From NCBI GenBank assembly GCA_030737835.1, contig CM060849.1, positions 3,968,001 to 4,032,000 of the forward strand: 64,000 nucleotides of DNA. Reading direction: 5' to 3'. Numbering within the stretch: the first letter of the stretch is position 1; the number at the start of each line of letters is the position of its first letter. Positions 1 to 64,000 of this stretch are shown here, piece by piece. This stretch comes from Acorus gramineus. Its lineage: Eukaryota; Streptophyta; Magnoliopsida; Acorales; Acoraceae. Under the pieces are notes generated by a model that did not search any database, had not been told where the DNA came from, and worked only from the letters and a program-made list of their open reading frames with translations. Position numbers and translations under genes: made by a program.

Positions 1-810
1 GATCTGAGTGGATCGTATATGTGTGGATAGGCTGTTTCTGTTCCCTTCGTTGGATCCGTATAGAGACTGCCCCAGCGTTAGACAGGCCTTCCTGACAGAG
101 GGCTCCCATCAGTAGGCACCTCCTGATTTGGGTTCGGACTGTACTGAATTGTGGGAGTGGACCAGACGGCCTACGGAGTGGAGGAGAGACTATCGGTGGA
201 CCAAGGGTGATTAACAGCCTAGTCAGTCCTAATAGCCGTGTCACCTATTTAGAGGGTGAGGGTGTGGTGGGTCGGCGATGTTGCGACCCACTGGATTGTG
301 TATTTCCTACCACTTTCAGGCTTTGAATTATTTGTGGTTAATATAAATTGTGATGCATGGGTTGTGCTATTCACTGAGCGTGTGGCTCACCCCTCGCATA
401 TTTTTCTCCGGTTATCACTGAGTCGGACCGGAAGGAGGAGCTCCCCGAGGGACTTCATCAGTAGCGGAGCAGCGCCACGTCCCACGAGTGTTAGAGGCCA
501 TCAGCATCCCTTTTTGATTGTATGTATTATATTTCCGTGCTTGGGCACCTGTTTGTATTATATTTGGATGTATTTGTGTATATTGGCTCTCACAGGACAG
601 TTGATTATGTATCGAGTCTATAATATGTTTTTGAATTACAGACTCAGTCTTTTAGCTTCCGCTATTTGTGTATATATCATGTCAGCCTTGCTTTTGTCTG
701 TGTTGTCATTTTAGCTGTTGTTTAGAGTATGTTATTGACCTCCTGTATAGACTGCTGATATCATGTATACACTTGCCGCGTCCCGGGGACGGCCGCCCTG
801 GGGCGTGACA
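1..810 (+). repeat. Tekay LTR, 3' portion (5' LTR of element A)
   Basis: The LTR ends in GGGGCGTGACA just before the primer-binding site. The visible part holds the U5-side modules: the G-rich run and hairpin at about 252-291, and the stretch with repeated TATTGGCTCTCACAGGAC-type sequence that all copies share. It resembles the LTRs of element C more than the LTR at 5766-8079. Confidence 0.88.
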
Positions 811-12633: not shown

Positions 12634-15600
12634 TGTCACGCCCCAGGGCGGCCGTCCCCTGGACGCGGCAAGCGTATATATGATATCAGCAGTCAATACA
12701 GGAAGTCAATAACACACTCTAACCACATCCAAAATGGCTACACAGACAACAAAGGGGCTGACATTATATATACACAAATAGCGGAAGCTAAAAGACTGAG
12801 TCTGTAACTCAAAGACATATTACAGGCTCGATACACAATCAACTGTCCTGTGAGAGCCAATATATATAATGACATCCAAATATAATACAAACATGTGCCC
12901 AAGCACAGAATACAATACATACAATCAAAAGGGATGCTGATAGCCTCTAAAACTCGCGGAAATGTGGCGTTGCACCGCTACTGCTGAGGTCACTCGGGGA
13001 GCTCCTCCTCCTGATCCGACTCAGATAGCACTGGAGAATAATATTATGCGAGGGGTGAGCCACACGCTCAGTGAGCAGCACAACCCATGCATCACAGTTC
13101 ATATTAACCACAATTTATCATTTAAAAGCCTTAAAGTGGCAAGAACTCCACAATCCAGTGGGTCGCTACATCGCCGACCCACCACACTCTCACCCTCACC
13201 CCCCAATAGGTGACATAGGATATTGGGATTGATTACTGCACAGATCCGGCGGGTCGCTACATCGCCAACCCACCACACCCTCACCCTCACCCCTCAATAG
13301 GTGACATAGGATATTGGGACTGACTAGGCTATTGGTCACCCTTGGTCCACCGATAGTCTCTCCTCCACTCTGTAGGTCGCTTGGCCACTCCCACATTCAG
13401 CACAGTCCGTCCCAAATCAGGAGGTGCCTACTGATGGGAGCCCTCTCATGGGATGACCTTTCTAACGCTGAGGCAGTCTCTACACGGATCCAACGAAGGG
13501 AACAGAACAGCCTATCCATACGCATATGATCCACTCGGATCCGCGACATCCCTTAACTGAAAAAAAAGAAACCTTGGGAGGGCACCATGAGGTCCCAATA
13601 TAGGATACCCCGACAACCAAACAAGGAACACAGAGTACCCTAGCCCGGGTCTCAACGCTGACTTCGCAAGGCCCTTTAATCCAGAGAAGGGAGACACTAC
13701 TGATGTCACGATTCTTCAGAATTCCTCTAGGGCGCATAACCAAGATGCGGGGAACATATATAATAATAACGAGGGTTATAATATTATTGGAAAAAGAAAC
13801 CTTGGGAGGGCAGCATGAGGCCCTGATATAGGATACCCCAACAACCAAACAAGGAACACGGAGTACCCTAGCTCGGGTCTCAACGCTGACCTCGCAAGGC
13901 CCCTCCCTATAATATTTTATAAGGAATGCTAATAATCATATGCTCGTATTTAATTTAATAAATTAAACTAGTAGGACACATGCATAAGTCGAGGCTTCCT
14001 AGCATGCGAACAGGGTGACAGGATGCATGGCTCTTACACATATCCTAAGGTTGCAAGTCCCAAACATACAAAGTCTAGGGTGACATGCATTCTACACATT
14101 AATCATGCTTGCATGGATTACATATTAGACAAGTTAATATTGACCATGGTGCCCTGAGGGAGGGCGGTATACGCCCAAGTGCATATAGCGCCTCCCAACT
14201 GGGTTGGGTTGTCCCACTCACCCTTAACCGGGTCGTCGCGTGATCGTCCGTCCAGATCTGCAAAATAGGGTAATCAACTCGGTGAGTAAAATACACAATT
14301 ATACAAAAAAATACACTAAATTACCCAACACTCGGACAAGCGTACATACGGCCTGTACGCACGCGAGTCCGAGCACCCCGACTCACTCCCGAACCCCCGG
14401 GCAGCCGTACGTGCGGCCACCCGACCCAGGCGCACAGCCGCGCCCCAGCCCGCGCACCTAGGCGCACTGCCGAGCCCAGCCCGCACGCCCGGACACCCTG
14501 CCGAGCCCCCCCCGGTGCACCGCGCGCTCACTGCGCCCCAGCGCAGCAACCCGCACGCACACCCGCACGCCCAGTGCCCCAACGCCGCACCCCGCGTGCA
14601 CCCCGCGCGCACCACCCGCTCGCACCACTCGCTCGTCCTGCCCTGGGTGCACCCGCGCGCACTGCGCCCCAGCGCAGTGCCCCGCACACACTCCCTGCTC
14701 GCCCCGCGCGCACTGCGCCCCCTGCCTGCTCGCCACGCACCCCTGCGCAGCGCTCCGCGCGCACGCCGCGCACTGCGCTTAGCGCGCCCGACCGCACGCG
14801 CCCAGCGAGCCCGACAGCACGCGCCTAGTGCGCCTGCCGGTAGCTCACCCCCCTGCGCCTGCCCGCCTGCGCCTGCCAGCCTGCGCGCGCCGCTGTCCGC
14901 ATGCGCCCGAGCTGAGCTCCACCACTCCAACCGCCACCAACAGCTACCACAACCACTCCCAAACCACCAAGCACCTCTTTCACTCCCAAAAACACACCCT
15001 AACATACATCTAAACAAGAAGTGGAAGGAAAGGAAGCTTACCCTAGGAGAGGAAGAGAAGGGGAGGAAGAACGGGTGCTCCTCGCGCACCGATTCGCCAC
15101 CTCCAAGGCCACCACCACCAAGACCTCCCCTCAGCCAAAGCAAGGCTGAAAACAGAGGAGAAAAGAGGGTATGATAAGGGGTCACACACGTGGGAACTCG
15201 AATTCGAGACCACCGAAAGGTAGATCGGGAGCTCACCTATCTTTTCTCTTCTTAGGGTTTTCGGTTTCAACCTCAAGAACTAGGTCAAAAGGGAGGATTA
15301 AAGAGAGGGAGAGAGAGAGAAATTTCCAAGAAGATGATGAATAGTGGAGGATTTTGTCTTGGTCGTGGGATTTATTTATCCTCACACACACATCACACAC
15401 TCTCACACCCCTTAGATTAGCCCTAATTAGGTTTAGGCTAGATTAGATTAGGTTTAAGTGTGGTTTGACCCTAGTCAACCCAACCACACAAAAATCCAAA
15501 TTCATTTGACCAAGTCAATGGTCAACTTTGACCAAGTCAAGTCTCCCAATGACTTTTCGCTCGGTCAAAACACGGATACGCTTCGAAACTGTGAAATTCT

Positions 15601-15817: not shown

Positions 15818-16925
15818 AGTCGGGGCACTCGGACTCGCGTGCGTACTGGCCCGTATGCATGCTTGTCCTAGTGTTGGGTATTTCTAGCGTATTTTGTATG
15901 TATTTAGTTTGTGTTTATGTATTTTACTCACCATTTTGGTTTCCCATGTCTTGCAGATCTTGACGGGCGGTCACGCGACGACCCGGATATTGTGAGTGGG
16001 ACAATCCAACCCAGTTGGGAGGTGTTCGATGCACGTAGGCGTGCAATGCCCTCTCCTGGGGCACCATAATTGCATATTACATAGTATTAATTGTAAATTA
16101 TGCAATGCATGATTATTATGTAATATTAATTGTAAACTATGCATGCTTGATCATTATGTAGTATCCATGCCACCCTAGGCCTTGCATGTTAGGGATATGC
16201 ACCCTTATTATGTGTGTAAAGGCCCAAGCATCCTGACACCATGTTTTCATGCTAGGGAAGCCTCGACCTACGCATACGTCCCATTTAGTTTAATTTATTT
16301 AAATCAAATGCGAGTTTTGTAATTAGCATGCCTCAGAGAATATTGTAACCTTATGGTTATGATATATGTCTCCCCGCATCTTAGGGGATTATGTGATTAT
16401 ATAGTTATTAGCATGCCTTAGAGAATATTATAACCTTGGGGTTATAATATATGTTTCCCCACATCTTAGTTATGCGCTCTGGAGGAATTCTGAAGAATTC
16501 ATGTCATTTGTAGAGTTGAGATCGGTGTCGGCGGATCCAAGTGGATCGTATCCGTGTGGGTAGGCTGTTTCTCTTCCCTTCGTTGGATCCGTGTAGGGAC
16601 TCCTGAGCGTTAGACAGGCCGTTATGACAGAGGGCTCCCATCAGTAGGCACCTCCTGATTTGGTTTCGGACAGTGCTGAATCGTGGGAGTAGACCAGGCG
16701 AGCTACGGTGTGGAGGAGAGGCTATCGGTGGACCAAGGGTGATTAACAGCCTAGTCAGTCCCAAAAGACCATGTCACCAGTTTGAGGGTGAGGGTGAGGG
16801 TGTAGTGGGTTGGCGATGAGCGACCCACTGGTTTGTGTAGTTGTTGCCACTTAGAGGCTATAAATGATTTAAGGTTGATATGATTTGTGATGCGTAGCTT
16901 GTGCCGTTCACTGAGCGTGTGGCTC
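15818..16925 (+). repeat. 3' LTR of element B, second segment
   Basis: Resumes the host LTR with the AGTCG duplicate (15818-15822) and runs through the TCTTGCAGATCTTGACGG leader motif (about 15950) and the U5 hairpin (about 16805-16835). It is then interrupted after GGCTC (16921-16925) by a second solo LTR. Confidence 0.9.
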
Positions 16926-19900
16926 TGTTATATATGTGTCACTTCTAACCTTCTGGTAACCGTTAGAGCGTTCTGGCAGTTTTAAAAATTTTTAGGGTTT
17001 TTGGTCGGAACCGCATAATTTCAGACTGTTAGCTATCGTCTGAGTTAGAGGACTCCGATTGGAAATCTGACTGCATATTTGGTGTCCTGGCGCCATTTTA
17101 GACCTCTCATGAAAGTTTCATCGAATTCTGGCATCGTTTGCAAAAATTTCACAGTTCCGGGGCGTATCCGGGTATTTTAAGTCGCACATTACATAAATGG
17201 AATCTAAAATTTGAAATCACTATTCATCATCCCCGACCTTGGACTCTCTCTCTCCTCTCCTCCGTTTTTCTTCCGTTTGAGCCCCCTCCACCCTCGAAAT
17301 CGAAAACCCAAAGCACGGGAAGTGTAGATCGGGTCCCGATCTACGCTCCGGTGTCTTCAAATCCAAATTCCGACGACTTTAGCCACTCCGACCTCCCCTC
17401 TCTCTCCTCTGTTTCGAGCCAAATTGAGGGCCGTGATAGATCGAGGCGTGAGAAGGCCTTTGGGAAAGGTTTCGGCGCGCGGAGAGCGTCCGGACTTCGC
17501 TCCCTCCCCTCGGTAAGCCTCTTTTCCTCTCATTTCTTGTCTAGATGATTGCTAGGAGAGGGTTTTGTGGTTGGGAGGTGGTTGGTGGCGGTGGGGGTCG
17601 TCGGAGGGTGGTCGGAGGTGGTCGGAAGTGGTCGGCGGCCGTGGGAGGGGTGGTTGGAGGTGCTCGGGCTGCGGGGGGTGGTCTCGGGCTGCAGGGAGGG
17701 GTCCTCGGGCAGCAGGCAGAGCAGCAGCGGCGCGCAGGCTGGGCGCTCGCGGTCATGCGCGCGTGCGTGCGCGGGCGCGCGGCGCGCGGCGTGCAAGCTG
17801 GCGCGCGCGGGCGGCGTGCTGTGCTGGTCGTGCAGGCGTGCTGGGGGCCTCAGGCAGCGGGCAGCGGGCGCTCGGGCAGGGGCAGGTCGTCCGGGCCAAG
17901 CAGCAGCAGCAGCAGCAGCCCAGGCGGCGCCAGGTCGGGTGCGCGCGGGCAGGCGCGCGTGCGTGCGCAGGCGCGCGTACGCGCGGCGTGCGCGCGAGGG
18001 CGCGCGGGCCTGGTGCAGGGTGCTGGTCGGCCTGGGCGAGCAGGGGCCGGTGCTGGGCGAGCAGAGGCTGGTCTGGGCGGACTGGTGCGCGTGGAACTGA
18101 TCGCGCGGGTGCTCGGCGTGCGCGCGCGAGGAGGTGGCTGAGGCAGCGGAGGTGCGCGCGCGAGGTGCTGGCCGAGGTGCCGGGGCGCGCGCGGAGGAGG
18201 CACGGGGCGCGGGGCAGTGCGCGAGGTGCGTGCGAGGTGCGTGCGAGGTGCGGCAAGGTGTGCGAGGTGCGTGCGAGGTGCGCGCGAGGTGCGGCAAGGT
18301 GGCGGAGGTGCGCGCGGGGTGCGCGCGAGGCGGGGCACTGCGTGTGGGGGCGCGCGGGGTGCTCGCGGACCGGCGCAAGGCGTGCGGGGATTCGCGGCGG
18401 TGCACCCGGGCGGTGGCCGGCCGTGCGGGTGGTTGCCGGGGACCGTGCGGGTGGTTGCCGAAGCCGCGGGCAGTTGTTGGGGAAGTGTTGGATGCTTGTT
18501 GTGGGTTTTGAGGTGTTTAATTATGTACTTAATGATAATTGTGAATTAATACTTACCAAATAATACCTGTCTTGCAGATCTCGACAGACGGTCGCGCGTT
18601 GACCCCGATCACTGGTGAGTGGGACAATCCAACCCAGTCGAGAGGTGTTATACGCACTTGGGCGTATACCGACCTCTCCTGGGGCGTCTTGGATGAATAT
18701 TAACCTGCAATAATATGTATCCATGATTGTATAATTTATGTGTAGAATGCATGTTTCCCTAGTTTTGCATGTTAGGGACTTGCCCCTTAGGATATGCATA
18801 TGAGCCTTGCAGCATGTCCCCTGTTTACATGCTAGGAAACCCGGCCTATGCATGTGTCCTACTAGTTTTATTTATTAAATTAAATGCTGGTATCTGTTAG
18901 ATCGCATGCCTTAGGATAATATTATAGGTCAACGCTGAGACCCGTGTTAGGGTACTCCGTGTTCCTTGTTTGGTTGTCGGGATGTCCTGTATCGGGACCT
19001 CGGGCTGCCCTCCCAAGGTTTCTAGTCCCAATAATATTATAAGTAATGTTGTATGATTAGTATGATTATTAGCATGAGTAGTGAATATTATAGGGGAGGG
19101 ACCTTGCGAGGACAGCGGTGAGACCCGTGTTAGGGTACTCCGTGTTCCTTGTTTGGTTGTCGGGGTATCCTGTATCGGGAACTCACGCCGCCCTCCCGAG
19201 TTTCTTTCCCCCAGTGATATTCCAACACTGCTTTTGATTGTACTGTTTCCCCGCATCGTGGAGATGCATCCGGTTGAATTCAGAGGAATTCATGACATTT
19301 GAGTTGTAGAGATGTAATATCGGCGGATCCGAGTGGATCATATGCGTATGGATAGGCTGTTCTGTTCCCTGCGTTGGATCCGGTGGAGGCTACCCCCAGC
19401 GTTAGACAGGGCCTTCCTGACAGAGGGCTCCCATTAGTAGGCACCTCCTGATGAGGTGACGGACTGTGCTGAATATGGGAGTAGACCAGGCGGCCTACGG
19501 AGTGGAGGGAGAGACTATCGGTGGACTAAGGGTGACCAACAGCCTAGTCAGTCCCAAAATCCTATGTCACCCATGGATGGGTGAGGGTGAGGGTGTGGTG
19601 GGTTGGCGATGAGCGACCTACTGGATTTGTGAATAGATGTTTATCAGTCCCAAAATCCTATGTCACCCATTGATGGGTGAGGGTGAGGGTGTGGTGGTGG
19701 TTCGGCGAAGTACGAACCACTGGATTATGTTGTTATGTAATGATGGCTGGATAAAATAATGGAATATTGGTAAATATTGTCTGTGATGCGTGGGTTGTGC
19801 TGTTCACTGAGCGTGTGGCTCACCCCTCGCACATGTTTTTCCCCAGTGGTCACTGAGCCTGAGCTGGAGCCGGAGCAGCAGTTGGAGCTTTCCGAGGGAT

Positions 19901-26754: not shown

Positions 26755-29689
26755 TGTTATATATGTGTCACTTTTTGCCTTCTGGTAACCATTGGGACAT
26801 TCTGGCAGTTTTTTGGTTTTTTTCGTTTTTCGATCGGAACCGCTAAAATTTTGGACTGTTAGCTATCATCCTAAGTTTGAGGGCTCCGATTGGAAATCTA
26901 ACTGCATATTATATGTCCTGGTGCCATTCCAAGCCACTCACGAAAATTTCATCGAATTCCAGTAACGTTTCAGAATTTCACAGTTCTGAAGCGTATCCGG
27001 GTTTTGACCGAGCGAGAAGTCATTGGGAGACTTGACTTGGTCAAATTTGACCTTTGACTTGGTCAAATGAATTTGGCTTTTTGTGTGGTTGGGTTGACTA
27101 GGGTCAAACCACACTTAAAACCCTCCTAATCCTTGCCTAAACCTAATTAATTAGCCCTAATCAAGTGGTGAGTGTGTGTGGTGTGTGTGTGAGTATAAAG
27201 AAATCCCACGACATCATAAACCCTCCTATTCATCATCTTCTCCAAATTTCTCTCTCTCTCCCTCTCTTTAATCCCCCCATATGATCTAGTAGGCGGTCTT
27301 GAAACCAAAAACCCTAAGAAGAGAAAAGATAGGTGAGCTCCCGATCTACCTTCCGGTGGTCTCGGATTCGAGTTCCCACAAGTGTGACCCCCTCTCATAC
27401 CCTCTTTTCTCCTCTGTTTTCAGCCTTGCTGTGGCTGAGGGGAGATCTTGGTGGTGGTGGTCTTGGAGGTGGCGAATCGGTGCGCGAAGAGCACCCGTTC
27501 TTCCTCCCCTTCTCTTCCTCTCCTAGGGTAAGCTTCCTTTCCTTCCATTTCTTGTTTAGATGTATGTTAGGAGGTGTTTTTGGGGTATGCATGGCTGTTG
27601 GTGGCGGTTGGTGGCTGTTGGTGGCCATTGGTGGCCGTCGGGGAGGTGGTAGGGTTGTCTCGGGTAGGCTGGCAGCGTAGGCAGCGCAGGCAGGCAGGCT
27701 GGCAGGCAGGGCGGGTAGAGCAGGTAGGCAGGGCACGCGCGCGTTCGCGCGGGCATGCGCGCGGGTGGAGCAGGAGTGTGCGGGTGCTGCGCATTATGCG
27801 CCGTGCGGGGGTGTGCGCGCGGAGCGCTGCGCAGAGGCGCAGTGCGTGCTGTGCGTGCGGGTGCTGCGCGCAGGGGGCCGTGCGGGGGCGTGCGCGCAGA
27901 GCGCTGCGCAGAGGCGCAGTGCGTGCTGTGCGCGCACAGTGAGGTGAGCGGGTGGTGCGCGCGGGGTGCGCGCAGGGTGCTGCGCTGGGGCGCAGGGCGT
28001 GCGGGTGTGCGCGTGAGTTGCTACGCTGGGGCGCAGTGAGCGCACGGTGCACCCGGGGGGCTCGGCAGTGGGTCCGGGAATGCGGGCAGGGGCTCGGCAG
28101 TGCGTCTGGGCACGCGGGCTGGGGCGCGGCTGTGCGCCTGGGTCGGGTGGCCGTGCGTATGGCTGCCCGGGGGTTCGGGAGTGAGTCGGGTGCTTGGACC
28201 CGCGGGCGTACAGGCCGTATGTACGCTTGTCCTAGTGTTGTGTATTTTTAATGTATTTTTGTATATATTTGGGTATTTTACTCACCGAGTTGATTACCCT
28301 GTCTTGCAGATCTTGACGGACGGTCGCGCGACGACCCGGTTATTGGTGAGTGGGACAATCCAACCCAGTAGGGAGGCGCTATATGCACTTGGGCGTATAC
28401 CGTCCTCCCGTGGGGCACCATAGTTGAATATTAACTTGTTTAATATGTAATCTATGCAAGCATGATTAATGTGTAGTATGCATGCTACCCTAGACTTTGT
28501 ATGTTAGGGACTTGCACCCTTAGGATATGTGTAAGAGCCATGCATCCTGTTACTCTGTTCTCATGCTAGGAAGCCTCAACCTATGCATGTGTCCTACTAG
28601 TTTAATTTATTAAATTAAATGCGAACTTATGGTATTTTAGCATGCCTTAGGGAATATTAAGGGGCCTTGCGTGGTCAACATTGAGACCCGGGCTAGGGTA
28701 CTCCGTGTTCCTTGTTTGGTTGTCGGGATATCCTATGTCGGGACCTCATGGTGCCCTCCCAAGGTTTCTTTTCCTGATAATATTATAATATATGTTTCCC
28801 CGCATCTTAGTTATGCGCCCTGGAGGAATTCTGAAGAATTCATGACATTTATAAGTTGAGATCGGTGTCGGCGGATCCGAGTGGATCGTATGCGTATGGA
28901 TAGGCTGTTTCTGTTCCCTTCGTTGGATCCGTATAGAGACTGCCCCAGCGTTAGAAAGGTCGTCCCGTAAAAGGGCTCCCATCAGTAGGTACCTCCTGAT
29001 TTTGGATTCGGACTGTGCTGAAGTGTGGGAGTAGGCCAAGCGGCTACGGAGTGGAGGAGAGACTATCGGTGGACCAAGGGTGATTAACAGCCTAGTCAGT
29101 CCCAATATCCTATGTCACCTATTGAGGGGTGAGGGTGAGGGTGTGGTGGGTCGGCGATGTAGCGACCCACTGGATTGTGCAGTTCCTGCCACTTAGAGGC
29201 TTTGATTTAATTGTGGTTAATATAAATTGTGATGCATGGGTTGTGCTATTCACTGAGCGTGTGGCTCACCCCTCGCATAATTTTTCTCCAGTTATCACTG
29301 AGTCGGATCTGAAGGAGGAGCTCCTCGAGAGACTTCATCAGTAGCGGAGCAGCGCCACGTCCCGCGAGTATTAGAGGCCATCAGCATCCTTCCTTTGATT
29401 GTATGTATTATATTTTCGTGCTTGGGCACCGTTTGTATATTATTTGGATGTATGTGTGTATATTGGCTCTCACAGGACAGATGATTATGTATCGAGTCTG
29501 TAGTATGTTTTTGAATTACAGACTCAGTCTTTTAGCTTCCGCTATTTGTGTATATATCATGTCAGCCTTGCTTTTATCTGTGTTGTCATTTTAGCTGTTG
29601 TTAGAGTATGTTATTGATCTCCTGTATAGACTGCTGATATCATGTATACACTTGCCGCGTCCCGGGGACGGCCGCCCTGGGGCGTGACA
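26755..29689 (+). repeat. 5' LTR of element C (2,935 bp)
   Basis: TGTTATATATGTG...GGGGCGTGACA. Landmarks are a TATA-like box at 27194-27200; a donor-like GGTAAGC with GT at 27528; a G+C-rich block at about 27660-28170; the acceptor TCTTGCAG ending 28309; a 36-nt segment, then GTGAGT at 28346; the G-rich run 29126-29150; a hairpin (29146-29153 pairing with 29163-29170); and an acceptor-like TTTCTCCAG ending 29291. It is the cleanest complete LTR in the window. Confidence 0.93.
27194..27200 (+). promoter_or_regulatory. TATA-like box in element C 5' LTR
   Basis: TATAAAG follows a GTGTGTG-rich stretch and precedes the C+T-rich leader by a normal distance. The same box is at 35074-35080 in the 3' LTR. 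It probably marks the U3/R start of transcription. Confidence 0.6.
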
Positions 29690-34590: not shown

Positions 34591-34621
34591 TCTTGTATTT
34601 ATTTTGAGGACAAAATTTCCT

Positions 34622-34633: not shown

Positions 34634-37148
34634 TGTTATATATGTGTCACTTTTAACCTTCTGGTAACCATTGGGACATTTTGGCAGTTTTTCGGTTTTT
34701 TTCATTTTTCGATCGGAACCGCTAAAATTTTGGACTGTTAGCTATCATCCTGAGTTTGAGGGCTCCGATTGAAAATCTAACTGCATATTATGTGTCCTGG
34801 TGCCATTCCAAGCCACTCACGAAAATTTCATCGAATTCCGGTAACGTTTCAGAATTTCACAGTTCCGAAGCGTATCCGGGTTTTGACCGGGCGAGAAGTC
34901 ATTGGGAGACTTGACTTGGTCAAAGTTGACCTTTGACTTGGTCAAATGAATTTGGATTTTTGTGTGGTTGGGTTGACTAGGGTCAAACCACACTTAAACC
35001 TAATCTAATCAAGCCTAAACCTAATTAATTAGCCCTAATCAAGTGGTGTGAGAATGGGTGGTGGGTGTGTGAGTATAAAGAAATCCCACGACATCATAAA
35101 CCCTCCTATTCATCATCTTCTCCAAATTTCTCTCTCTCCCTCTCTTTAATCCCCCCATATGATCTAGTAGGAGGTCTTGAAACCAAAAACCCTAAGAAGA
35201 GAAAAGATAGGTGAGCTCCCGATCTACCTTCCGGTGGTCTCGGATTCGAGTTCCCACATGTGTGACCCCCTCTCATACCCTCTTTTCTCCTCTGTTTTCA
35301 GCCTTGCTTTGGCTGAGGGGAGATCTTGGTGGTGGTGGTCTTGGAGGTGGCGAATCGGTGCGCGAAGAGCACCCGTTCTTCCTCCCCTTCTCTTCCTCTC
35401 CTAGGGTAAGCTTCCTTTCCTTCCTTTTCTTGTTTAGATGTATGTTAGGAAGTGTTTTTGGGGGTATGCATGGCTGTTGGAGGCTGTTGGTGGCCGTTGG
35501 TGGCCATTGGTGGCCGTCGGGGAGGTGGTAGGGTTGTCTCGGGTAGGCTGACAGCGTAGGCAGCGCAGGCAGGCGGGCTGGCAGGCAGGGCGGGAAGAGC
35601 AGGTAGGCAGGGCACGCGCGCGTTCGCACGGGCATGCGCGCGGGTGGAGCAGGAGTGTGCGGGTGCTGCGCATTATGCGCCGTGCGGGGGCGTGCGCGCG
35701 GGGCGCTGCGCAGAGGCGCAGTGCGTGCTGTGCGTGCGGGTGCTGCGCGCAGGGGGCCGTGCGGGGGCGTGCGCGCAGAGCGCTGCGCAGAGGCGCAGTG
35801 CGTGCTGTGCGCGCACAGTGAGGTGAGCGGGTGGTGCGCGCGGGGTGCGCGCAGGGTGCTGCGCTGGGGCGCAGGGCGTGCGGGTGTGCGCGTGAGTTGC
35901 TACGCTGGGGCGCAGTGAGCGCACGGTGCACCCGGGGGGCTCGGCAGTGGGTCCGGGCATGCGGGCAGGGGCTCGGCAGTGCGTCTGGGCGCGCGGGCTG
36001 GGGCGCGGCTGTGCGCGTGGGGCGGGTGGCCGTGCGTACGGCTGCCCGGGGGTTCGGGAGTGAGTCGGGTGCTCGGACTCGCGGGCGTACAGGCCGTATG
36101 TACGGTTGTCCGAGTGTTGTGTATTTTTAATGTATTTTTGTATATATTTGTGTATTTTACTCACCGAGTTGATTACCCTGTCTTGCAGATCTTGACGGAC
36201 GGTCGCGCGACGACCCGGTTATTGGTGAGTGGGACAACCCAACCCAATGGGGAGGCGCTATATGCACTTGGGCGTGTACCGTCCTCCCCTGGGGCACCAT
36301 AGTTTAATATTAACTTGTTTAATATGTAATCTATGCAAGCATGATTAATATTTAGTATGCATGCTACCCTAGACTTTGTATGTTAGGGACTTGCACCCTT
36401 AGGATATGTCTAAGAGCCATGCATCCTGTCACCCTGTTCTCATGCTAGGAAGCCTCGACCTATGCATGTGTCCTACTAGTTTAATTTATTAAATTAAATG
36501 TGAACTTATGGTATTTTAAGCATGCCTTAGGGAATATTAAGGGGCCTTGCGTGGTCAACATTGAGACCCAGACTAGGGTACTCCGTGTTCCTTGTTTGAT
36601 TGTCAGGATATCCTATGTCGGGACCTCATGGTACCCTCCCAAGGTTTCTTTTCCCGATAATATTATAATATATGTTTCCCCGCATCTTAGTTATGCGCCC
36701 TGGAGGAATTCTGAAGAATTCATGACATTTATAAGTTGAGATCGGTGTCGGCGGATCCGAGTGGATCGTATGCGTACGGATAGGCTGTTTCTGTTCCCTT
36801 CGTTGGATCCGTATAGAGACTACCCCGGCGTTGGAAAGGTCGTCCCGTGCAGGGGCTCCCATCAGTAGGTACCTCCTGATTTTGGATTCGGACTATGCTG
36901 AAGTGTGGGAGTAGGCCAAGCGGCTACGGAGTGGAGGAGAGACTATCGGTGGACCAAGGGTGATTAACAGCCTAGTCAGTCCCAATATCCTATGTCACCT
37001 ATTGAGGGGTGAGGGTGAGGGTGTGGTGGGTCGGCGATGTAGCGACCCACTGGATTGTGCAGTTCCTGCCGCTTAGAGGCTTTGATTTAATTGTGGTTAA
37101 TATAAATTGTGATGCATGGGTTGTGCTATTCACTGAGCGTGTGCCTCA
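34634..37148 (+). repeat. 3' LTR of element C (right end missing)
   Basis: Matches the 5' LTR of C along its length, with the TATA-like box at 35074-35080, G+C-rich block about 35540-36050 and U5 hairpin about 37025-37050. It stops after GTGTGCCTCA, where the LTR of element D begins. The remaining LTR tail is not found beyond element D. Confidence 0.88.
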
Positions 37149-38914
37149 TGTTATACTTGTATCACTTTTAGCCTGCTGCTAACCGTTGGAGCGTTCTGGC
37201 AGTTTTTAAAATTTTTAGGGTTTCGATCGGAACCGCTAATTTTTGGACTGTTAGCTATCGTCCTGAGTTAGAGGACTCCGATTGGAAATCTAACTGCATA
37301 TTTGGTGTCCTGGTGCCATTTTAGACCTCTCACAAAAATTTCGTTGAATTCCGGTAACGTTTCCGAAATTTCGCAGTTCCGGGGCGTATCTGAGTTTTTA
37401 AGTCGCTTGGTATATAAGGTGGGTGGGAAAAGTCAATGAGCACTATTCATTGTCTTCCCCAATGATCTCCCTCTCTCCTCTTCTCTCTTTTTCTCCCTTT
37501 TGAGCCCCCTAGACCCCTCAAAGCTTAAAACCCAAAACCTAGGAAGTGTAGATCGGGTCCCGATCTACACTCCGGTGTTTTCAAATCCCAATTCCGGCGA
37601 GTTTTGCCCGTCCGTCCGCCCTCTCTTCGTCCCTGATTTGAGCCATCTCGGCGGTGGAGGTAGATCGGGGCGTAGGAGAGCCTTTGAGAAAGGTTTCGGC
37701 GCGCGGAGAGCCACCGGACTTTCCCTCCTCCCCTTGGTAAGCCCCCTTTCCCTCTTTTTCTTGCATAGATGTATGCTAGGGGGGTGGTTTTGTGGTTGGG
37801 AGGCGGTTGGCGGCGGTGGGTGGCCGTCGGAGGGCTGTGGGAGGCGGTCGGAGGCTGTGGTGGTGGTCGGAGGTGGGTGGTAGAGGAGCTCGGGCTCGGG
37901 CAGGATGGCAGGGCAGCAGCAGCAGGCGCAGCAGCCGCAGGCGCAGCAGGCAGGGCCGCTGGCAGGGCGCGCGCGGGCGTGCGCACGGGCGTGCGCTCGG
38001 GCTGGCGCTGGGCGTGCCTGGTGCTGGGCGTGCAGGGCTAGTCGGGTGCTAGGCTGGCAGGGCTAGCTGGGTAGGCTGGGAGCAGGGCACCAGTTTGCTG
38101 GGCGCGCGAGCGCGTGCGCGCGGGAGCGCGCGCGGGAGTGCGCTCGGGGGGTGCAGGGGCGCTCGGGCATCAGGCGGGCAGTGCCCCGGGCGTGCAGGCG
38201 AGCGGTGCTCGGGCCACTCGGCGACGCGCGCAGGCAGGCAACGCGGGCAGCAGCGCGGGCAAGCTGGCAGGCGCGCTGAGCGCGTGCTGCCAGGCGCGCT
38301 GGGCGCGTGTTGCGCGGGCGTGCGCGTGGACACTGGGTGAGGGTCCCGGGTGCTGGGTGTAGTGGGTTGGCGATTGAGCAACCCACGGCTTTGAGTTGTG
38401 CTATCATTTGTGGATTAAGTAATATGAATTGTGGATTATAAGGATATCTGGTTGTGGTCAATATTGTCTGTGATGCATGGGTTGTGCCGTTCACTGAGCG
38501 TGTGGCTCACCCCTCGCATAATATTTTCTTCAGTGTCATCTGAGTCGGATCTGGAGGAGGAGCTCCCCGAGGGATTTCATCAGTAGCGGAGTAGCGCCAC
38601 GTCCCGCGAGTTGCAGAGGCTATCAGCATCCCTTGTGTTTGTATGTATCATTTTCCGTGCTTGGGCACGCGTTGGTGTTGTATTTGGATGTCTTTGTATG
38701 TATATTGGCTCTCACAGGACATGTGATTATGTATGGAGTCTGTAGTGTGTTTTGATTACAGATTCAGTCTTTAGTTATCCGCATTTGGTGTATATATCAT
38801 GTCAGCCCTGCTTTGTTGTCTGTGTGTCATGTTGTATGATATTATTGACCTCCTGTGTAGATTCTGATATTTTATATACACTTGCCGCGTCTCGGGGACG
38901 CCCGGGGCGTGACA
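37149..38914 (+). repeat. 5' LTR of element D (shortened copy)
   Basis: TGTTATACTTG...GGGGCGTGACA. A TATATAAG box is at 37411-37418 and a donor-like TTGGTAAGCC at about 37735. A G+C-rich block (about 37890-38340) is followed by the tail part of the LTR. It is 1.77 kb, against more than 3 kb for the 3' LTR. Confidence 0.88.
37411..37418 (+). promoter_or_regulatory. TATA box in element D LTR
   Basis: TATATAAG, with TATATAAA at the matching place in the 3' LTR (42297-42304). It lies just upstream of a CACTATTCATTGTCTTCC leader, consistent with the promoter of the element. Confidence 0.7.
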
Positions 38915-38920
38915 AAAAGG

Positions 38921-40366: not shown

Positions 40367-41234
40367 GTGTGTCAGTTGCTGTAAGCATGTGTGTGTAATA
40401 TCTCGTTGAGCGGGTAATGAGTGTGGTTGTTCAAGTTAAAGAGGCCGGGTTGTAGCCGTCCTGGCAGGAGGCTCCCATCCGTACCGCCGATGCAGTCGGA
40501 GGGGTACTGAACCTGGGAGTATACCAGGTAGGGGCTAACCCGGAAGAGGATTGATGAATGGTGCCGCGAGCGTGGAATCGCTCTCCCCTTCGTCGGATCC
40601 GCGTAGTACAGCCCCGGCGTTAGACAGGCTCCCGGTCAGAGGACCAGGCGAGCTACGGAGCGGGGAGAGGCTACCGGTGGACCAGGGGTAGAGAGCAGTC
40701 TAAGTCTCTCCCAAAGTCCCAAAATGTCTCCTTTCGGGAGTGAGGGTGTGGATGAGGCGAAGACGGGTCGCTCGTGACCAAATGGTTTATTCGACCATTC
40801 CCGATGATGTTGGGTTCGGTCCTGTAATGGATGATGTCGCGAGTATGGAATCGTTCTCCCCTTCGTTGGACCCGAGTAGGGACTCCTCAGCGTTAGAGAG
40901 GCCTTCCTGACAGAGGGCTCCCCTCAGTAGGCACCTCCTGATTTTGGTTCGGACTGTGCTGAATTGTGGGAGCGGACCAGGCGGCCTACGGTGTGGAGGA
41001 GAGGCTACCGGTGGACCAGGGGTGAAGAACAGTCTAAGTCTCTCCCAAAGTCCCAAAAAGTCTCCTGAAAGGAGTGAGGGTGTGGATGAGACAAAGACGC
41101 GTCGCCTCGTGACTTGGTCGTGGTTCGACCGTTCCCATAGAGGTTGGGTCCGGTCTTGAGAATGGATGTTAAAGGATATCGGTGGGTGATTATCTAGATG
41201 TAGATGATCAAATGCGATGGGTGGTATTCTTAAT
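40367..41234 (+). repeat. LTR-like segments of another Tekay subfamily inside element D
   Basis: Sequence such as GAGGCCGGGTTGTAGC, GGCTCCCATCCGTA and GCGAGCGTGGAATCG repeats modules of the solo LTR at about 55400-55870. At least two successive module sets are visible (from about 40400 and 40830). It contains no protease or RT motifs, so LTR DNA of a different subfamily occupies the place where pol is expected. Confidence 0.75.
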
Positions 41235-41990: not shown

Positions 41991-42020
41991 TTTTTGCATA
42001 TTTTGAGGACAAAATTTCCT

Positions 42021-42033
42021 AAGGGGGGAAGAA
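42021..42033 (+). other. Polypurine tract of element D
   Basis: AAGGGGGGAAGAA immediately before the 3' LTR start. Confidence 0.85.
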
Positions 42034-45000
42034 TGTTATATATGTGTCACTTTTAGCCTGCTGGTAACCGTTGGAGCGTTCTGGCAGTTTTTAAAATTTT
42101 TAGGGTTTTCGATCGGAACCGCTAATTTTTGGACTGTTAGCTATCGTCCTGAGCTAGAGGACTCCGATTGAAAATCTAACTGTATATTTGGTGTCCTGGT
42201 GCCATTTTAGACCTCTCACAAAAATTTTGTTGAATTCCGGTAATGTTTCCGAAATTTCGCAGTTCCGGGGCGTATCTGGGTTTTTAAGTCGCTCACTATA
42301 TAAAGGTGGGTGGGAAAAGTCAATGAGCACTATTCATTGTCTTCCCCAATGATCTCCCTCTCTCCTCTTCTCTCTTTTTCTCCCTTTTGAGCCCCCTAGA
42401 CCTCTCAAAACTTAAAACCTAAAACATAGGAAGTGTAGATCGGGTCCCGATCTACACTCCGGTGTTTTCAAATCCCAATTCCGGCGAGTTTTGCCCGTCC
42501 GTCCGCCCTCTCTTCGTCCCTGATTTGAGCCATCTCGGCGGTGGAGGTAGATCGGGGCGTAGGAGAGCCTTTGAGAAAGGTTTCGGCGCGCGGAGAGCCA
42601 CCGGACTTCCCCTCCTCCCCTTGGTAAGCCCCCTTTCCCTCTTTTTCTTGCATAGATGTATGCTAGGGGGGTGGTTTTGTGGTTGGGAGGCGGTTGGCGG
42701 CGGTGGGTGGCCGTCGGAGGGCTGTGGGAGGCGGTTGGAGGCTGTGGTGGTGGTCGGAGGTGGGTGGTAGAGGAGCTCGGGCTCGGGCAGGATGGCAGGG
42801 CAGCAGCAGCAGGCGCAGCAGCCGCAAGCGCAACAGCCGCAGGCGCAGCAGGCAGGGCCGCTGGCGCAACAGCCGCAGGCGCAACAGTCGCAGGCGCAGC
42901 AGCCGCAGGCGCAACAGCCGCAGGCGCAGCAGGCGCGGGCGTGCGCTCGGCTGGCGCTGGGCGTGCCTGGTGCTGGGCGTGCAGGGCTAGTCGGGTGCTA
43001 GGCTGGCAGGGCTAGCTGGGTAGGCTGGGAGCAGGGCACCAGTTTGCTGGGCGCGCGGGCGCGCGCGCGGGCATGCGCTCGGGGGGTGCAGGGGCGCTCG
43101 GGCATCAGGCGGGCAGTGCCCCGGGCGTGGAGGCGAGCGGTGCTCGGGCCACTCGGCGACGCGCGCAGGCAGGCAACGTGGGCAGCAGCGCGGGCAGGCT
43201 GGCAGGTGCGCTGAGCGCGTGTTGCCAGGCGCGCTGGGCGCGTGTTGCGCGGGCGTGCGCGTGGACACTGGGTGAGGGTCCCGGGTGCTGGGCGCTGAGC
43301 GCTGGGCGCGGGTCGCGGGTACCGGGTGCTGGCCGAGGGTGCTGGGCGTCTGGGCGCTGGCGGGCGCAGTCGCGCGCGGGTGCGTGCGCGCGGGTGCGCG
43401 GGTTCGCGCGGAGCGGGCGCGCGGGTGCGCGCGGGTTCTGGCGTGAGCGGGGGTGTGCGCGGGAGTGCGCGCGGGTGCGCGCGGGGGCGTGCGGGCGTGT
43501 GCGCACGCGCCAGTGCGCCTGGGCAGTGCGCCTGGGCGCTGGGCAGGGAACCAGTGCGCGCGCACGCGTGCATGCGCGTGCGTGCGCGCGCTGGGGCATG
43601 CTGGGGCGTGCTGGGGCAGTGCGCGGGGTGCTGCGCGAGGGGCGCGGGCTGGACGCGCGGTGCACGTGGGCGCGCGCGAGCGTGGGCATGCGTGCGGGTG
43701 CGCGTCTGGGCTCGCGGGCAAGCGCGCGGCAGTGCGCCGATGGTGCCGGGGTGTGTGCGTGAGTGCGCATTCGTGCGTGCGCATGCAGGGGGCCATGCGA
43801 ATGGCTGCCCGAGGGTTCGGGTAGGTGTCGGGGCACTCGGACTCGCGTGCGTACGCGCGTGCTCGCATGCGTGCGAGCCCGTATGCATGCTTATCCGAGT
43901 TTTGGGTATTTCTATGCATTTCTATGTATAAATTGTGTGGTTTCTCACCATATTGAATGTCTGTCTTGCAGATCTAGACGGACGGTCGCGCGACGACCCC
44001 GATCTCTGGTGAGTGGGACAATCCAACCCAGTAGAGAGGTGTTATACGCACTTGGGCGTATACCGACCTCTCCTGGGGCACCATGGATAAATATTGACAT
44101 ATTGTAATGTGTATATCATGCGAGCATGATTAAATTGTAGAATGCATGTTACCCTAGACTTTGCATGTTAGGGACTTGCACCCTTAGGATATGTGTATGA
44201 GCCATGCAGCATGTCCCCTGGTTCCATGTTAGGAAGCCCGACCGATGCATGTGCCCTACTAGTTTATTTATTTAATTAAAAGTAGTATTTTGTTAAATTG
44301 CATGTTATAGTGAATATTATAGGGGAGGGGCCTTGCGAGGACAGCGGTGAGACCCGAGTTAGGGTACACCGTGTTCCTTGTTTGGTTGTCGGGGTGTCCT
44401 ATAACGGGAACTCACGCTGCCCTCCCGAGTTTCTTTCCCCAACGATATTCCACCTTGTTATAACCTTATGCATGTTCCCCGCATCGTAGTTATGCGCCCT
44501 GGTGGGTTCTGAGGAATTCAGAACATTAGTGTTGTTATAATGTGCCGTCTGCGGATCCAAGTGGATCATATGCGATGGGTAGGCTGTTCTGTTCCCTTCG
44601 TTGGATCCGGTAGAGACTACCCCAGCGTTAGACAGGCCTTCCTGACAGAGGGCTCCCATCAGTAGGCACCTCCTGATTTAGGACGGACTGTGCTGAATGT
44701 GGGAGTAGACCAGGCGCCTACGGAGTGGAGGAGAGACTATCGGTGGACCAAGGGTGACCAACAGCCTAGTCAGTCCCAAAATCCTATGTCACCCATTGAA
44801 GGGTGAGGGTGAGGGTGTAGTGGGTTGGCGATGAACGACCCACTGGAGTTGTGATTGGATGCTTGTAAGTCCCAATATCCTATGTCACCCATTGAAGGGT
44901 GAGGGTGAGGGTGTGGCGGGTTGGCGGAAGCGACCCGCTGGTTATGTGTAGCCAGTCCCAATATCCTTTGTCGCCCATTGAAGGGTGAGGGTGAGGGTGT

Positions 45001-45104
45001 AGTGGGTTGGCGATTGAGCAACCCACGGCTTTGAGTTGTGCTATCATTTGTGGATTAAGTAATATGAATTGTGGATTATAAGGATATCTGGTTGTGGTCA
45101 ATAT
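42034..45104 (+). repeat. 3' LTR of element D (right end missing)
   Basis: Starts TGTTATATATG; TATATAAA at 42297-42304; a 15-bp GCGCAACAGCCGCAG-type minisatellite (about 42800-42935); a long G+C-rich block to about 43830; acceptor-like TCTTGCAGATCTAGACGG near 43967; and three tandem units of about 90 bp (44772-45030), each with the G-rich run and hairpin. Homology to the 5' LTR stops at 45104, followed directly by Harbinger ORF1. Confidence 0.88.
44772..45030 (+). repeat. Triplicated U5 unit with hairpins
   Basis: Three head-to-tail units start AGTCCCAA.ATCCT.TGTC (44772, 44866, 44953). Each holds the repeated GGGTGA run followed by a short stem: arms at 44820-44827/44836-44843, 44916-44923/44931-44938 and 45002-45009/45019-45026. 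The arms differ between units but stay complementary. Confidence 0.85.
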
Positions 45105-52892: not shown

Positions 52893-55800
52893 TGTTGTGC
52901 CTGTGTCATTTGGAGCGCTCTGTTTGAAAATTTGGGTACATAATTTTTTTTCCTAGAAGTTATGTATTTTCAATTTGGTATTTGGATTTGATTTTGTTAA
53001 AATCCAAGATGAAGAGGTTTAAATATGAGTTTACTATGAGATGTCCAGTTTTGAGTTAGCTTTCGTACAGAAGTGGAATTAGATCAACTGGATTCTTGTA
53101 GTAAAAGTTATGGGTATTTTTCCAAGTATACCCCGGGGAGGGAAATTCTGGCAGCAGCCCTGTTCTATGTTTAGCTCTAATTTCGGATTAGCTAGAGGGA
53201 TTATTTGATCTTGGCATAAACATGAAAGTTGTAGATAATCCTCTTGGCTTTCCAACGGACTTGAAATTGTGCAATTCGGAGCTATATCGAAGAAGTTATG
53301 GCTGTTCCAGTGAAGCATGCGCAGAATTTCAAGTCAAAGGGCGACTAGGTCTTTTCATCCCCCTCTTTAGATATTTATGTGCAAATATCTCTCTCTCTCT
53401 CTCTCCCTCTCACTTCCACGCCATTTTTCTGGTCTCTCTTTCTCTCATTCAAGCCCCCACCAAGTGTTTGGTTTATTTACTCAAAGAGAAGAAGAGAAGG
53501 AGGAGGTGAAGGAAGAAGAGAAGGTTGGTTTATGTGTTGTTGTTGTTTGTTCTCCCCTCTCTCAAGCTCTCTTTGTATGATCTTTCTCCCCCTGTTTTTC
53601 AGCCAAGGAGGAGGCTGAGGAGAGGCGGAGGAGGTGGTGGTGTTGGTGGTGGCGGTTGAGGTGGTCACGGGTGCGTCGAGGGCCCCCGAACCTCCCCCTT
53701 TTGTTCCCCCTCCAAGGTGAGCTTCTCCCCTTCTTTTCTTGGTTTTCATGGCTTAAGGGGATGTTAGGGAGGTCATGCATGTTGGGTAGATGTGTTAGGG
53801 TGTGAGTGAGGGGTTGGGGAGGGTTAAAAAGAGGTTGGGATGGGCTGGGCGCGCGCTGGGCCAGTCTGGCGCGTGCGCAAGCAGGCGCGCGCACAGGCGG
53901 GCGCTGGCAGGCGCAGTCGGGCGCGCAGACGCGCGAGTGCGCGGGTGCGCGCGATTGTGCGTGGGCGCGCGGGGGCGTGCGCGCGAGCGTGCGCGCGCGC
54001 GGGCAGTGCACTTGGGCATGTGCCTGGGCGCGGGGCAGGGGACCAGTGCGCGCGCGTGCGTGCGTGCGCGTGCTGGGGCGTGCGCGGGGTGCTGCGCGAG
54101 GGCTGGACGCACAGTGCGCGCGCGTGCTACAGCGCGTCTGGGCGCGCGGGCAGGCGCACGGCAGTGCGCCGATGGTGCTGGGGTGCGTGCGTGCGTGCGC
54201 ATTCGTGCGTGCGCATGCGGGGGGCCATGCGTGTGGCTGCCCGAGGGTTCTGGTAGGTGTCATGGCACTCGGACTCGCGTGCGTACGTGCGTGCTCGCAT
54301 GCGTGCGAGCCCGTATGCATGCTTGTCCGAGTATTGGGTATTTCTAATGTTTTCTATGTGTAAATTGTGTTGTTTCTCACCAGTTGGATGCCCCTACCTT
54401 GCAGATCTCGTCGGATGGGATGCGCGAGGTCCCGGGTTGTAAGGTGAGTGGTTTGATTCCAATCCCCCCCCCCTCTCTAGGGATGCGCTCGACCCGCATA
54501 GACGCGCGTCGCGCATCGATGGGGCCCCCTAACTAATATGTAGATATTTTGCATGCTAGGGATATACATCCATGTATCGTGTATAGAGGCCCGTACATGC
54601 CTGGACACCATGTCATGTACTTAAAAGCCTTGATCTATGCATGATCAATATGATGTATCCATGCCACATTAGACCTTTTATGCTAGGGAAATGCATCCTG
54701 ACACCATGTTTCATGCTAGGAAAGCCCTGAACCTATGCATGCTCCCATTAGTTTAATTTATTTAAATCAAGATGGGATTATGAGATTATATTGTTGCAAG
54801 CATGCCTTAAATAATATTATAACCTTGTGGTTATAATATGTCTCCCCGCATCTTAGTTATGCGCCCTAGAGGAATTCTTGAGAATTCATGACATTAGAAA
54901 TGTTAGGAAGCGTTGTCGACGGATCCAAGAGGATCGCATGCGTGTGGGTAGGCTGTTCTCTTCCCTTCGTTGGATCCGTGTAGAGACTCCCCAGCGTTAG
55001 ACAGGCTGTCCTGACAGAGGGCTCCCATCTGTAGGTACCTCCGATGCGTCGGACTGTGCTGATCGTGGGAGTAGACCAGGCGAGCTACGGAGTGGAGGAG
55101 AGGCTTTCGGTGGACCAAGGGTGATTAACAGCCTAGTCAGTCCCAAGAGACCATGTCACCCCTTCGAGGGTGAGGGTGAGGGTGTGGTGGGTCGGCGATG
55201 TAACGACAAACTGGCTTGTGTAGTTACTCCCGCTTAGGGACTATGACTACTTGAAGGTTAATATGAGTGTGTTGCGTTGCATAGTTTGTGCCATTCACTG
55301 AGTGTGTGGCACACCCCTCGCATATTCTTCTCCTCCAGAGTGGGAGTTGTTTCCATGGGGTTCGCTTTGCGAACATGGAATGTTCACTCCCAGGGTTGTT
55401 CGAGTTGAAGAGGCCGGGTTGTAGCTGTCCTAACAGAGGGCTCCCATCCGTAGGTACCACCGATGCAGTCGGAGGGGTACTGATCGTGGGAGTATACCAG
55501 GTAGAGGCTACCCGAAAAAGGGTTAACGAATGATATCGCGAGCGTGGAATCATTCTTCCCTTCGTTGGATCCGTGTAGTGACAGCCCCGGCGTTAGACAG
55601 GCTATCCTGACAGAGGGCTCCCATCTGTAGGTACCTCCGATGTGTCCGGACAATGCTAATCGTGGGAGTATACCAGGTAAGCTACGGAGCGGGGAGAGGC
55701 TACCGGTGGACCAGGGGCGTAGAGCAGTCTAAGTCTCTTCCCAAAGTCCCAAGATGTCTCCTTTCAGGAGTGAGGGTGTGGATGAGGCGAAGACACGTCC

Positions 55801-61464: not shown

Positions 61465-64000
61465 AACCATTATTACAGACCCGAGATACACAATCACTGT
61501 CCTGTGAGAGCCAAGTCTAGACCAAAGAAAATACAACCTGTGCCACATGCACGAATTACAATATATATAATGACTCTAGGAATGCTGACAGCCTCACACT
61601 CGCCACCCGCCGGAAGAACGCTCCACGCCCATAAGACCACGCCACAGGAAAGCTCCAGCTCCATGCCCAACACTGCCCCTGAAAAGAAACAGTATGCGAG
61701 GGGTGAGCTACAAGCTCAGTGAGTGGCTGGAAACCAATCACCATACTACAGTTCAATACTCAAACAATTTCCTCACAAAGAAAACATGGGTGGAAACCCA
61801 TGGATAACAAAGTCACGCGGCGGCGCGACCATCCTCACCCTCACCCTCACTCCCGAAGGAAGACTCTTGGGGAGAGACCATACCGTCGGTCGAAGAGACC
61901 CGGAATTTCTGATCTACACAACACTATTGGATCATCTACATCTAGATAACTGCCCAACGATGTCCTTGAACATCGATTACGAGACCGGACCCAACAACTA
62001 TGGGAACGGTCGAACAACGTATGGGTCACGCGGCGATGTGTCGTCGCCTCACCCTCACCAATATCATTTGTTAACCCTCTCCCGGGTAGCCTCCACCTGG
62101 TATACTCCCACGATCAGTACGCTCCCGAATGCATCGGATGGGAGCCCTCTGTCAGGACAGCTACAACCCGGCCTCTTCAACTCACCGCTCTACACCCTTG
62201 GTCCACCGGTAGCCCTTTCCCCGGGTAGCCTCTACCTGGTATACTCCCATGGTCAGTACGTTCCTGAATGCATCGGTAGTACCTACAGATGGGAGCCCTC
62301 TGTCAGGACAGCTGTAATCCCGAGAAGTTCCTACATCGGATCCAACGAAGGGGAGAACGATCCCATGTTTGCAAAGCGAACCCAATGGAAAACAACTACT
62401 CTCGATAATCACTTATCGAGATATCAAAACACAGGCATAAACAACAATCTATGCAACACAACTCATATTAACCTTAAAATAATTAAAGTCCCTAAACGGG
62501 AGTAACTGTACAAGCTAGTGGGTCGTAACATCGCCGACCCACCCCACCCTCACCCTCACCCTTTAGGGGTGACATGGGCCTTTTGGGACAGACTAGGCTG
62601 CTCTCCACCCTTGGTCCACCAGTAGCCTCTCCCTCACTCCGTAGCCTCTACCTGGTATACTCCCACGATCAGCACCCTCCGACGCATCGGAGGTACCTAC
62701 AGATGGGAGCCCTCTGTCAGGACAGCTTTCCAACGCCGGGGAGTCTCTACTCGGATCCAACGAAGGGGAGAAAATAGCCTACTCACACAGATACGATCCT
62801 CTTGGATCCATCGACAACGATTTCTAACACTACTAATGTCATGAATTCTCAAGAATTCCTCCAGGGCGCATAACTAAGATGCGGGGAAACATATATTATA
62901 ACAACAAGGTTATAATATTCTCTAAGGCATGCTTATACCAATATAATCTCATTTTGATTTAATTAAATTAAACTAAATGGGAAACATGCATAGATCAAGG
63001 CATTTTAAGCACGGGACATAGTGTCTAGCCATGTACGGGCCTCTATACATGATACATGGATGTATATCCCTAGCATACAATGTCTAATATTGTCATGGTT
63101 ACATCATAGTAAAACATGCATTAACATCGTATCTACATATTATAGCTAGGGGGGCCCATCGATACGCGACGCGCATCTACGCACGTCGAGTGCACCCCTA
63201 GAGGGGGGGGGGGGATTGGAATCGAACCACTCACCAATATCCGGGACCTCGCGCATCCCATCCGACGAGATCTACAGGGTAAGGGCATTCAATATGGTGA
63301 GTAAACTACACAAATATACATGAAATTTACTAGAAATACCAAATACTCGGACAAGCATGCATACGGACTCGCACGTACGCACGCGAGTCCGAGTGCCTCG
63401 ACACCTACCCGAACCCTCAAGCAGCCACACGCATGGCCCCCCGCACGCGCACGCACGCATACGCACGCACGCACGCGCCCCAGCACCCTTGGCGCACTAT
63501 CGCGCGCCTGCCCGCACGCCTGTGCGCACTGCGCGTCCAGCCCGCGCGCCCTGCGCGCCCGCACAGAACCCCGCGCATGCCCCAGCAAGCGCACGCACTG
63601 GCCCCCAGCCCCGCGCCCAAGCACATGCCCAGGTGCACTACCCCGCGCGCGCGCACGAACGCGCGCACCCGCGCGCACCCGCGGGCACGCCCGCGCACAC
63701 CCCCGCTCGCGCCAGCGCCCGCGCGCCCGCCTGCCCCTACCAGCGCCCTTCTGCGCAGACTGCCCCCGACGCGCGCCCAGCCTCTCCCAACCTCTTTTTA
63801 ACCCTCCCCAACCCCTCACACACACTCTAACCCCTCTACCTAGCATGCATGACCTCCCCAACCATCCCAACAACCCTAAAAATAAAAAAGAAGAGGAAGA
63901 GGACTTACCAAAAGAGGGAAACAGAAAGGGGGGATGCGGGGCTCTCGACGCGCCCACGGCCACCTCAACCACCACCACCACCTCTTCAGCCTCCTCAGCC
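61465..64000 (-). repeat. Inverted Tekay LTR, continues beyond the window
   Basis: Begins again in the LTR tail half (TTATTACAGACCCGAG) and runs through U5 modules, a U5 hairpin region (about 62515-62545), the GATCTACAGGGTAAGG leader motif (about 63270), the G+C-rich block (about 63420-63790) and the leader, ending at the window edge before U3. Same subfamily as 52893-56587. Whether it is a solo LTR or part of a full element cannot be seen. Confidence 0.8.

Follow-up and report, generated by a model that had tools for sequence, protein, structure and literature searches.

A well-kept hairpin beside a quadruplex motif in an abundant LTR family of Acorus gramineus, with genuine but few compensatory changes

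In a 64,000-nucleotide stretch of Acorus gramineus DNA (contig CM060849.1, positions 3,968,001 to 4,032,000; hereafter the window), copies of a long terminal repeat (LTR) carry a series of G-runs followed at once by a short stem whose arms differ among copies yet stay paired. The locus at 44800-45030 raises the question of whether this pairing is kept by selection and, if so, in which form the sequence acts. We found that at 44800-45030 a ~86-96-bp unit is repeated in tandem, three times within one LTR. Each unit has the order AGTCCCAA..., H1, G-tract, H2, and H1, the G-tract and H2 make up a single unit. H2 is the stem noted in a preliminary description of this DNA, which had overlooked H1 (TCACCC/GGGTGA), an additional hairpin in each unit with a 3' arm that doubles as the first G-run of the G-tract. 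In the first unit H1 occupies 44789..44806 (plus strand; TCACCC-ATTGAA-GGGTGA, the 3' arm being G-run 1), the G-tract GGGTGAGGGTGAGGGTG 44801..44817 (plus strand; three G3 runs, the fourth sitting in the H2 arm), and H2 44820..44843 (plus strand; GTGGGTTG / CGACCCAC), with seven Watson-Crick pairs and one G-T pair. The second unit contains H1 at 44885..44902 and H2 at 44916..44938 (both plus strand; H2 GCGGGTTG / CGACCCGC), where pair 2 is C-G; the arms are paired as described, but one of the pairs is G-T. The third unit contains H1 at 44971..44988 (plus strand; TCGCCC / GGGTGA, with G-T at pair 3) and H2 at 45002..45026 (plus strand; GTGGGTTG / CAACCCAC), where pair 7 is T-A.

H2 has an 8-bp stem and a loop of mostly 7-9 nt that starts with GCG, and is present one to five times per LTR. 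A motif scan found 15 H2 hairpins of the family in the window, 14 of them with eight of eight standard pairs. A looser hairpin pattern matched 17 times against 1.1 expected in shuffles, these matches being related copies of one LTR family, with palindromic places counted on both strands. On the plus strand, the element starting at 26755 carries H2 in its 5' LTR (26755-29689) at 29146..29170 (GTGGGTCG / CGACCCAC) and in its 3' LTR, which is broken off at 37148, at 37026..37050. Further plus-strand copies include one with eight Watson-Crick pairs (267..291), two with seven Watson-Crick pairs and one G-T pair (7539..7562 and 16805..16828), one with two G-T pairs (19598..19621), one with T-A at pair 5 (19697..19720; GTGGTTCG / CGAACCAC), one remaining in a shortened LTR (38362..38386) and one with a damaged 3' arm and six of eight pairs (55187..55211). 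On the minus strand, a solo LTR at 12634-15817 contains two, at 13158..13182 in the unit closer to the LTR end and at 13249..13273 in the other unit, and a more distant subfamily contributes one with eight Watson-Crick pairs (62518..62542). The stem arms previously placed at 267-291, 19697-19720, 29146-29170, 44820-44843, 44916-44938 and 45002-45026 were all located there; a hairpin was also present at the place given as 7538-7563, but its true span is 7539-7562. The preliminary statement of three or four G-runs throughout does not hold for the copy at 254-291, where two runs accompany the one in the arm.

The solo LTR, on the minus strand, is flanked by 5-bp target repeats (CGACT) and has the termini TGTTATA...GTGACA, which sets the LTR length at ~2.9-3.2 kb. 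Measured against it, the LTR proper ends at TGACA (29689), ~520 bp past H2 at 29146-29170, so that the earlier 'U5-side' placement of H2 is only putative. A primer-site-like sequence, TGGTATCAGAGCC, which we take to be an initiator-Met tRNA primer site, lies just 3' of the LTR, and a polypurine tract, AAGGGGGGAGAA, lies 5' of the 3' LTR. Among the element proteins, Pfam Retrotrans_gag, RVP_2, RVT_1, RT_RNaseH and Integrase_H2C2 scored above their cut-offs, while the integrase core rve reached 23.7 of 32.6 bits and Chromo 20.1 and 17.4 bits against a cut-off of 25.1. With these protein domains, TG..CA ends, a target repeat, a primer site and a polypurine tract, the host is a Ty3/gypsy LTR retrotransposon, and this very abundant family may be chromovirus-like. 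The lineage name Tekay is the label of the preliminary description.

The unit closes a conserved module of ~290 nt in the LTR (28880..29176, plus strand), and a TATA-like site lies upstream of the unit at 28785; in four comparisons, similarity between distant LTRs began near this site. The G-tract is found at ~0.8 of the LTR length; in LTR 26755-29689 its three G-runs and the GGG of the H2 arm span 29126-29150. In LTR copies with under 93% similarity to the query, identity over H1-H2 was 0.86-0.89, while nearby sequence reached up to 0.96 and the LTR end 0.99. H1-H2 is thus one of several conserved LTR blocks, and H2 is not the most conserved. Another strongly conserved block spans 28300-28359 (identity 0.94 over 28300-28329) and has a 3'-splice-site-like TTGCAG near its start.

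Diverged copies of the module were also observed elsewhere. Two are internal to the element that begins at 37149, between its LTRs, one 3' of the gag frame (40568..40790, plus strand) and a second at 40840..41140 (plus strand). The gag frame is the sole plus-strand open frame of at least 200 aa between these LTRs and pol is represented by ~0.8 kb of residual DNA similarity, so we call this element apparently non-autonomous. Similar internal modules are present at other loci, and the LTR module seems in its own right to be a building block that recurs. Folding gave no support for H2 within the internal modules (z +1.3, -0.1 and -1.5), and an H1-like stem (CTCC/GGAG) was drawn in two of the three that were folded. 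The diverged module copies at 55553-55806 and 59899-60161 either lie within an element or follow another LTR module.

The G-tract motif, allowing up to three mismatches, was found at 17,535 places (8,616 + 8,919) in the 398.6-Mb genome, whereas the same motif read backwards was found at none. Upstream anchors of two other subfamilies, allowing up to two mismatches, matched at 8,294 and 6,816 places. Each of 94 complete LTR leaders had one or more H2 with no fewer than six pairs. Of 160 leaders collected with an anchor that omits the most distant subfamily, 95 were complete, and removal of a duplicate locus left these 94. A single unit was observed in 53 of the 94 leaders and two or more in 41, and two leaders carried fewer H2 than units. 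The conserved LTR hairpin of the preliminary description is in these respects confirmed, both by the 15 hairpins in the window, 14 of them fully paired, and by its retention in every complete leader. At eight loci (L054, L055, L057, L059, L060, L106, L123, L125), the H2 of the first unit was replaced by TATGGATG-type sequence with H1 and the G-tract retained; these stretches are incomplete and hence fall outside the 94 leaders, and a later H2 was visible in one of the eight.

In a set of 169 units, a count that includes two unalignable ones, pair 2 was T-A in 113, C-G in 45, T-G in 7 and C-A in 1; pair 5 was G-C in 144 and T-A in 23; and pair 7 was T-G in 113, C-G in 37, T-A in 16 and C-A in 1. 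When paired units from the two LTRs of single elements were compared by eye, hardly any stem differences were seen. Tree reconstruction gave one double change each for pair 2 (T-A to C-G), pair 5 (G-C to T-A) and H1 pair 6 (C-G to T-A), with one reverse change at pair 2 when stem columns were left out of tree building. Pair 1 was A-T in one unit, which fits passage via the G-T found in relatives. A second pair-5 double change, to A-T, was rejected as an artefact, since it stems from a single unit that lacks a real H2 and had passed the filter. The matched changes on the two arms are real, but true double changes are few, each amounting to about one event.

Whole-genome counts of the same forms reflect subfamily size and represent copies, not independent events; the patterns match both strands of the inverted repeat, and the listed places were oriented by their loops. 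The pair-5 T-A form (GTGGTTYG/CRAACCAC), in which the arm GGG is lost and the stem is fully paired, occupies 2,264 places, bearing out genome-wide the claim made for 19697 that the hairpin outlasts loss of the arm G-run. One-sided changes at pair 5 were found at 369 places, and the first 100 listed comprised 96 T.C, 3 G.A and 1 unrelated, from which we estimate about 350 places with uncompensated T.C. The T-A form occurs with the loops GCGATGTAA/GCGATGTAG at 247 places. At pair 2, one-sided changes were found at 1,262 places, with 92 T.G and 8 C.A among the first 100 listed, and at pair 7 with the GCGATGTNG loop T.G outnumbered C.A by 344 to 30. The common mismatched T.C form beside the repaired T-A form indicates compensation without strict need. 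CpG decay was rejected as the whole cause of the stem changes, since at pair 5 both arms changed by transversion, and T.G is far commoner than C.A among half-changed pairs.

Covariation was assessed against a tree-based null. The first test (119 distinct units, 4,560 column pairs) gave E values over all column pairs of 5.2 for pair 2 and 4.5 for pair 5. In a larger set of 240 units, taken from 261 distinct units by removing 2 gappy units and 19 with at most four pairs, the corresponding values were 4.2 and 3.1; tested singly, the scores of pairs 2 and 5 were reached by none of 200 nulls, while the other six H2 pairs, pair 7 among them, and all six H1 pairs showed no significant covariation. 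Standard pairs filled 0.980 of 1,916 H2 cells in the 240 units, compared to 0.855 in the nulls (sd 0.054, maximum 0.970 of 200), and at most 0.50 when the H2 partner was slid; scoring the 19 removed units as wholly unpaired lowers the H2 fraction to ~0.91 by arithmetic. The paired fraction of H1, 0.978, was below its null maximum of 0.985.

As the helix was first proposed from the window, a further round of the test excluded all units of the window. In the remaining 227 units, pair 5 was reached by none of 200 nulls and pair 2 by one, by raw score these pairs came 1st and 2nd among 819 variable column pairs (1st and 3rd with the window's units included), and the H2 paired fraction of 0.980 exceeded the maximum of 200 nulls (0.965). 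Over all column pairs, the 227 units gave E values of 3.4 (pair 2) and 2.8 (pair 5). Linked columns that mark subfamilies outside the helix scored nearly as high as the helix pairs, but only 3 of 38 high-scoring pairs outside the helix were 95% complementary. The covariation beyond phylogenetic expectation that had been anticipated is thus found for pairs 5 and 2 of the helix named beforehand, and is lacking over all column pairs (E about 3-5).

At the level of the whole module, covariation analysis of 120 sequences, or 99 from LTRs only, found no pair with E < 0.05. A fold for the 290-nt module was not retained, as RNAalifold gave weak and inconsistent structures for the LTR and mixed alignments, with no significant pairs. 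An Rfam search over 28500-45500 returned seven weak matches, none at gathering score and none on the hairpins. Compared with shuffles, sense-strand folding was mildly better (z -1.1 to -2.9 in six LTR units), antisense folding reached z -3.8 in the single unit folded, and the 371-nt leader gave z -0.56 (sense) and -1.96 (antisense), so that folding leans to the antisense strand, if to either.

Single changes that keep a pair were about as frequent as expected from the non-stem rate (27 seen, 30.3 expected), while those that break a pair fell to a quarter of this baseline (20 seen, 82.4 expected), the baseline containing a fast spacer. Under mutation alone, G-T and A-C should arise equally often because the arms share their context on opposite strands. 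In a sample of 174 of 191 distinct units, changes to sense-strand G-T outnumbered those to A-C by 27 to 8 (p 0.002), or by 20 to 8 (p 0.036) when the GGG pairs were excluded. Adding a second sample gave 33 to 14 (p 0.008; p 0.07 excluding GGG pairs), and the branches leading only to new units, at 5 to 6, did not replicate the bias, perhaps with most of the new changes being recent decay. The G-T polarity is suggestive of sense-strand RNA.

We give about an even chance to the reading that the unit, downstream of the TATA-like site, would be transcribed and act as sense-strand RNA, with H2 pairing kept by weak to moderate selection during the evolution of source elements. The data support selection on pairing with moderate strength, without proving it. 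The HIV-1 LTR forms a G-quadruplex with a duplex part and, like the unit described here, has a G-tract adjoining a hairpin, HIV-1 not being a relative; in the present unit H2 and a quadruplex might coexist or compete. At title and abstract level, in a search of mostly open-access literature, we found no published description of the H1/G-tract/H2 unit. Two published patterns are closer to the family. Plant LTR retrotransposons carry plus-strand potential quadruplex sequences in the 3' half of the LTR (PMC3902901), and the G-tract resembles these in consisting of plus-strand runs of at least three G, downstream of the promoter and in the 3' half of the LTR. Where PMC3902901 presents these motifs it describes no conserved hairpin beside them, unlike H2 here, and its main text does not use the term Tekay. 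In long R regions, residual conservation has been tied to stem-loops favouring both arms (PMC3601003); in contrast to those stem-loops the unit is tandemly repeated and its position in R is putative, and the plant models presented in that paper have short inverted repeats and a TATATA motif.

The established plant pattern (PMC3902901) bears on a different account, in which the G-tract, as a plus-strand quadruplex motif, or another sequence signal is what is conserved, H2 being an old passenger inverted repeat and its few double changes subfamily markers. The G-run columns are indeed constrained (15 G>A events across the run, against 5.1 per G site outside), the wobble bias weakens once GGG pairs are excluded, no covariation is significant once all column pairs are counted, and some column pairs outside the helix come close to the helix pairs in score. 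A passenger stem would sit poorly, however, with the 2,264 places where the arm GGG is absent and the stem is fully paired, with the top ranks of the two helix pairs among 819 (1st and 2nd, or 1st and 3rd), and with the scarcity of complementary pairs among the other high-scoring columns (3 of 38), and we regard this account as rather unlikely.

We consider two further accounts improbable. H2 could be a dyad-symmetric double-stranded site, both half-sites being read by a host protein dimer; such a site would suit the near-perfect inverted repeat, whose symmetry survives where pairs 2 and 5 have changed on both arms, but a DNA dyad predicts no preference between T.G and C.A, contrary to what is seen in copies (344:30, and 92:8 in the first 100 listed) and in events (33:14). 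Alternatively, the arms could be mended in the inverted repeat by template switching or gene conversion, with no selection involved. Template switching is able to create and mend hairpins, a mechanism published for RNA genes (PMC8794818), and the pair-5 lineage differs in the loop and both arms simultaneously. The half-changed forms speak against it: T.C (about 350 places) shares its loop backgrounds with T-A (247 places), and T.G is seen at pair 2, so the path looks stepwise, and by our reasoning template repair predicts no strand bias.

For a sense-strand RNA under selection, our guess is that the unit would serve recognition of the element's own RNA, for packaging or dimerisation, by Gag. 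We favour this mechanism on two grounds, the multiplication of the unit (one to five H2 in each LTR) and the occurrence of related modules within an apparently non-autonomous element. The main alternative would be an R-region role in strand transfer or 3'-end formation. An extended form, to which we give little credence, would make the unit a selfish RNA-recognition cassette, a quadruplex-competing hairpin bound by the Gag of autonomous relatives, multiplied in tandem in the LTR and copied into an apparently non-autonomous element that competes for packaging. If pairing is selected, a single genome offers one LTR RNA structure in thousands of natural variants, half-compensated stems included, and comparing these natural forms would then probe the roles of LTR structures and quadruplex motifs.

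Other inverted repeats were observed near and beyond the unit. A third one in the LTR, TGAGC-GTGTG-GCTCA, lies ~98 nt past H2 and is near invariant, with 81 of 87 loosely matched copies identical. Two related elements have inserted at nearly the same point of homologous LTRs, no more than 1 nt apart (16925/20259 and 37148), both hitting the 3' arm of this repeat; a target repeat, GGCTC, is present at one insertion, and a single junction is seen at the other. In more distant elements, a different inverted repeat, GTGAGTGG/CCAATCAC, is common to 56146-56168, 59480-59503 and 61719-61741.
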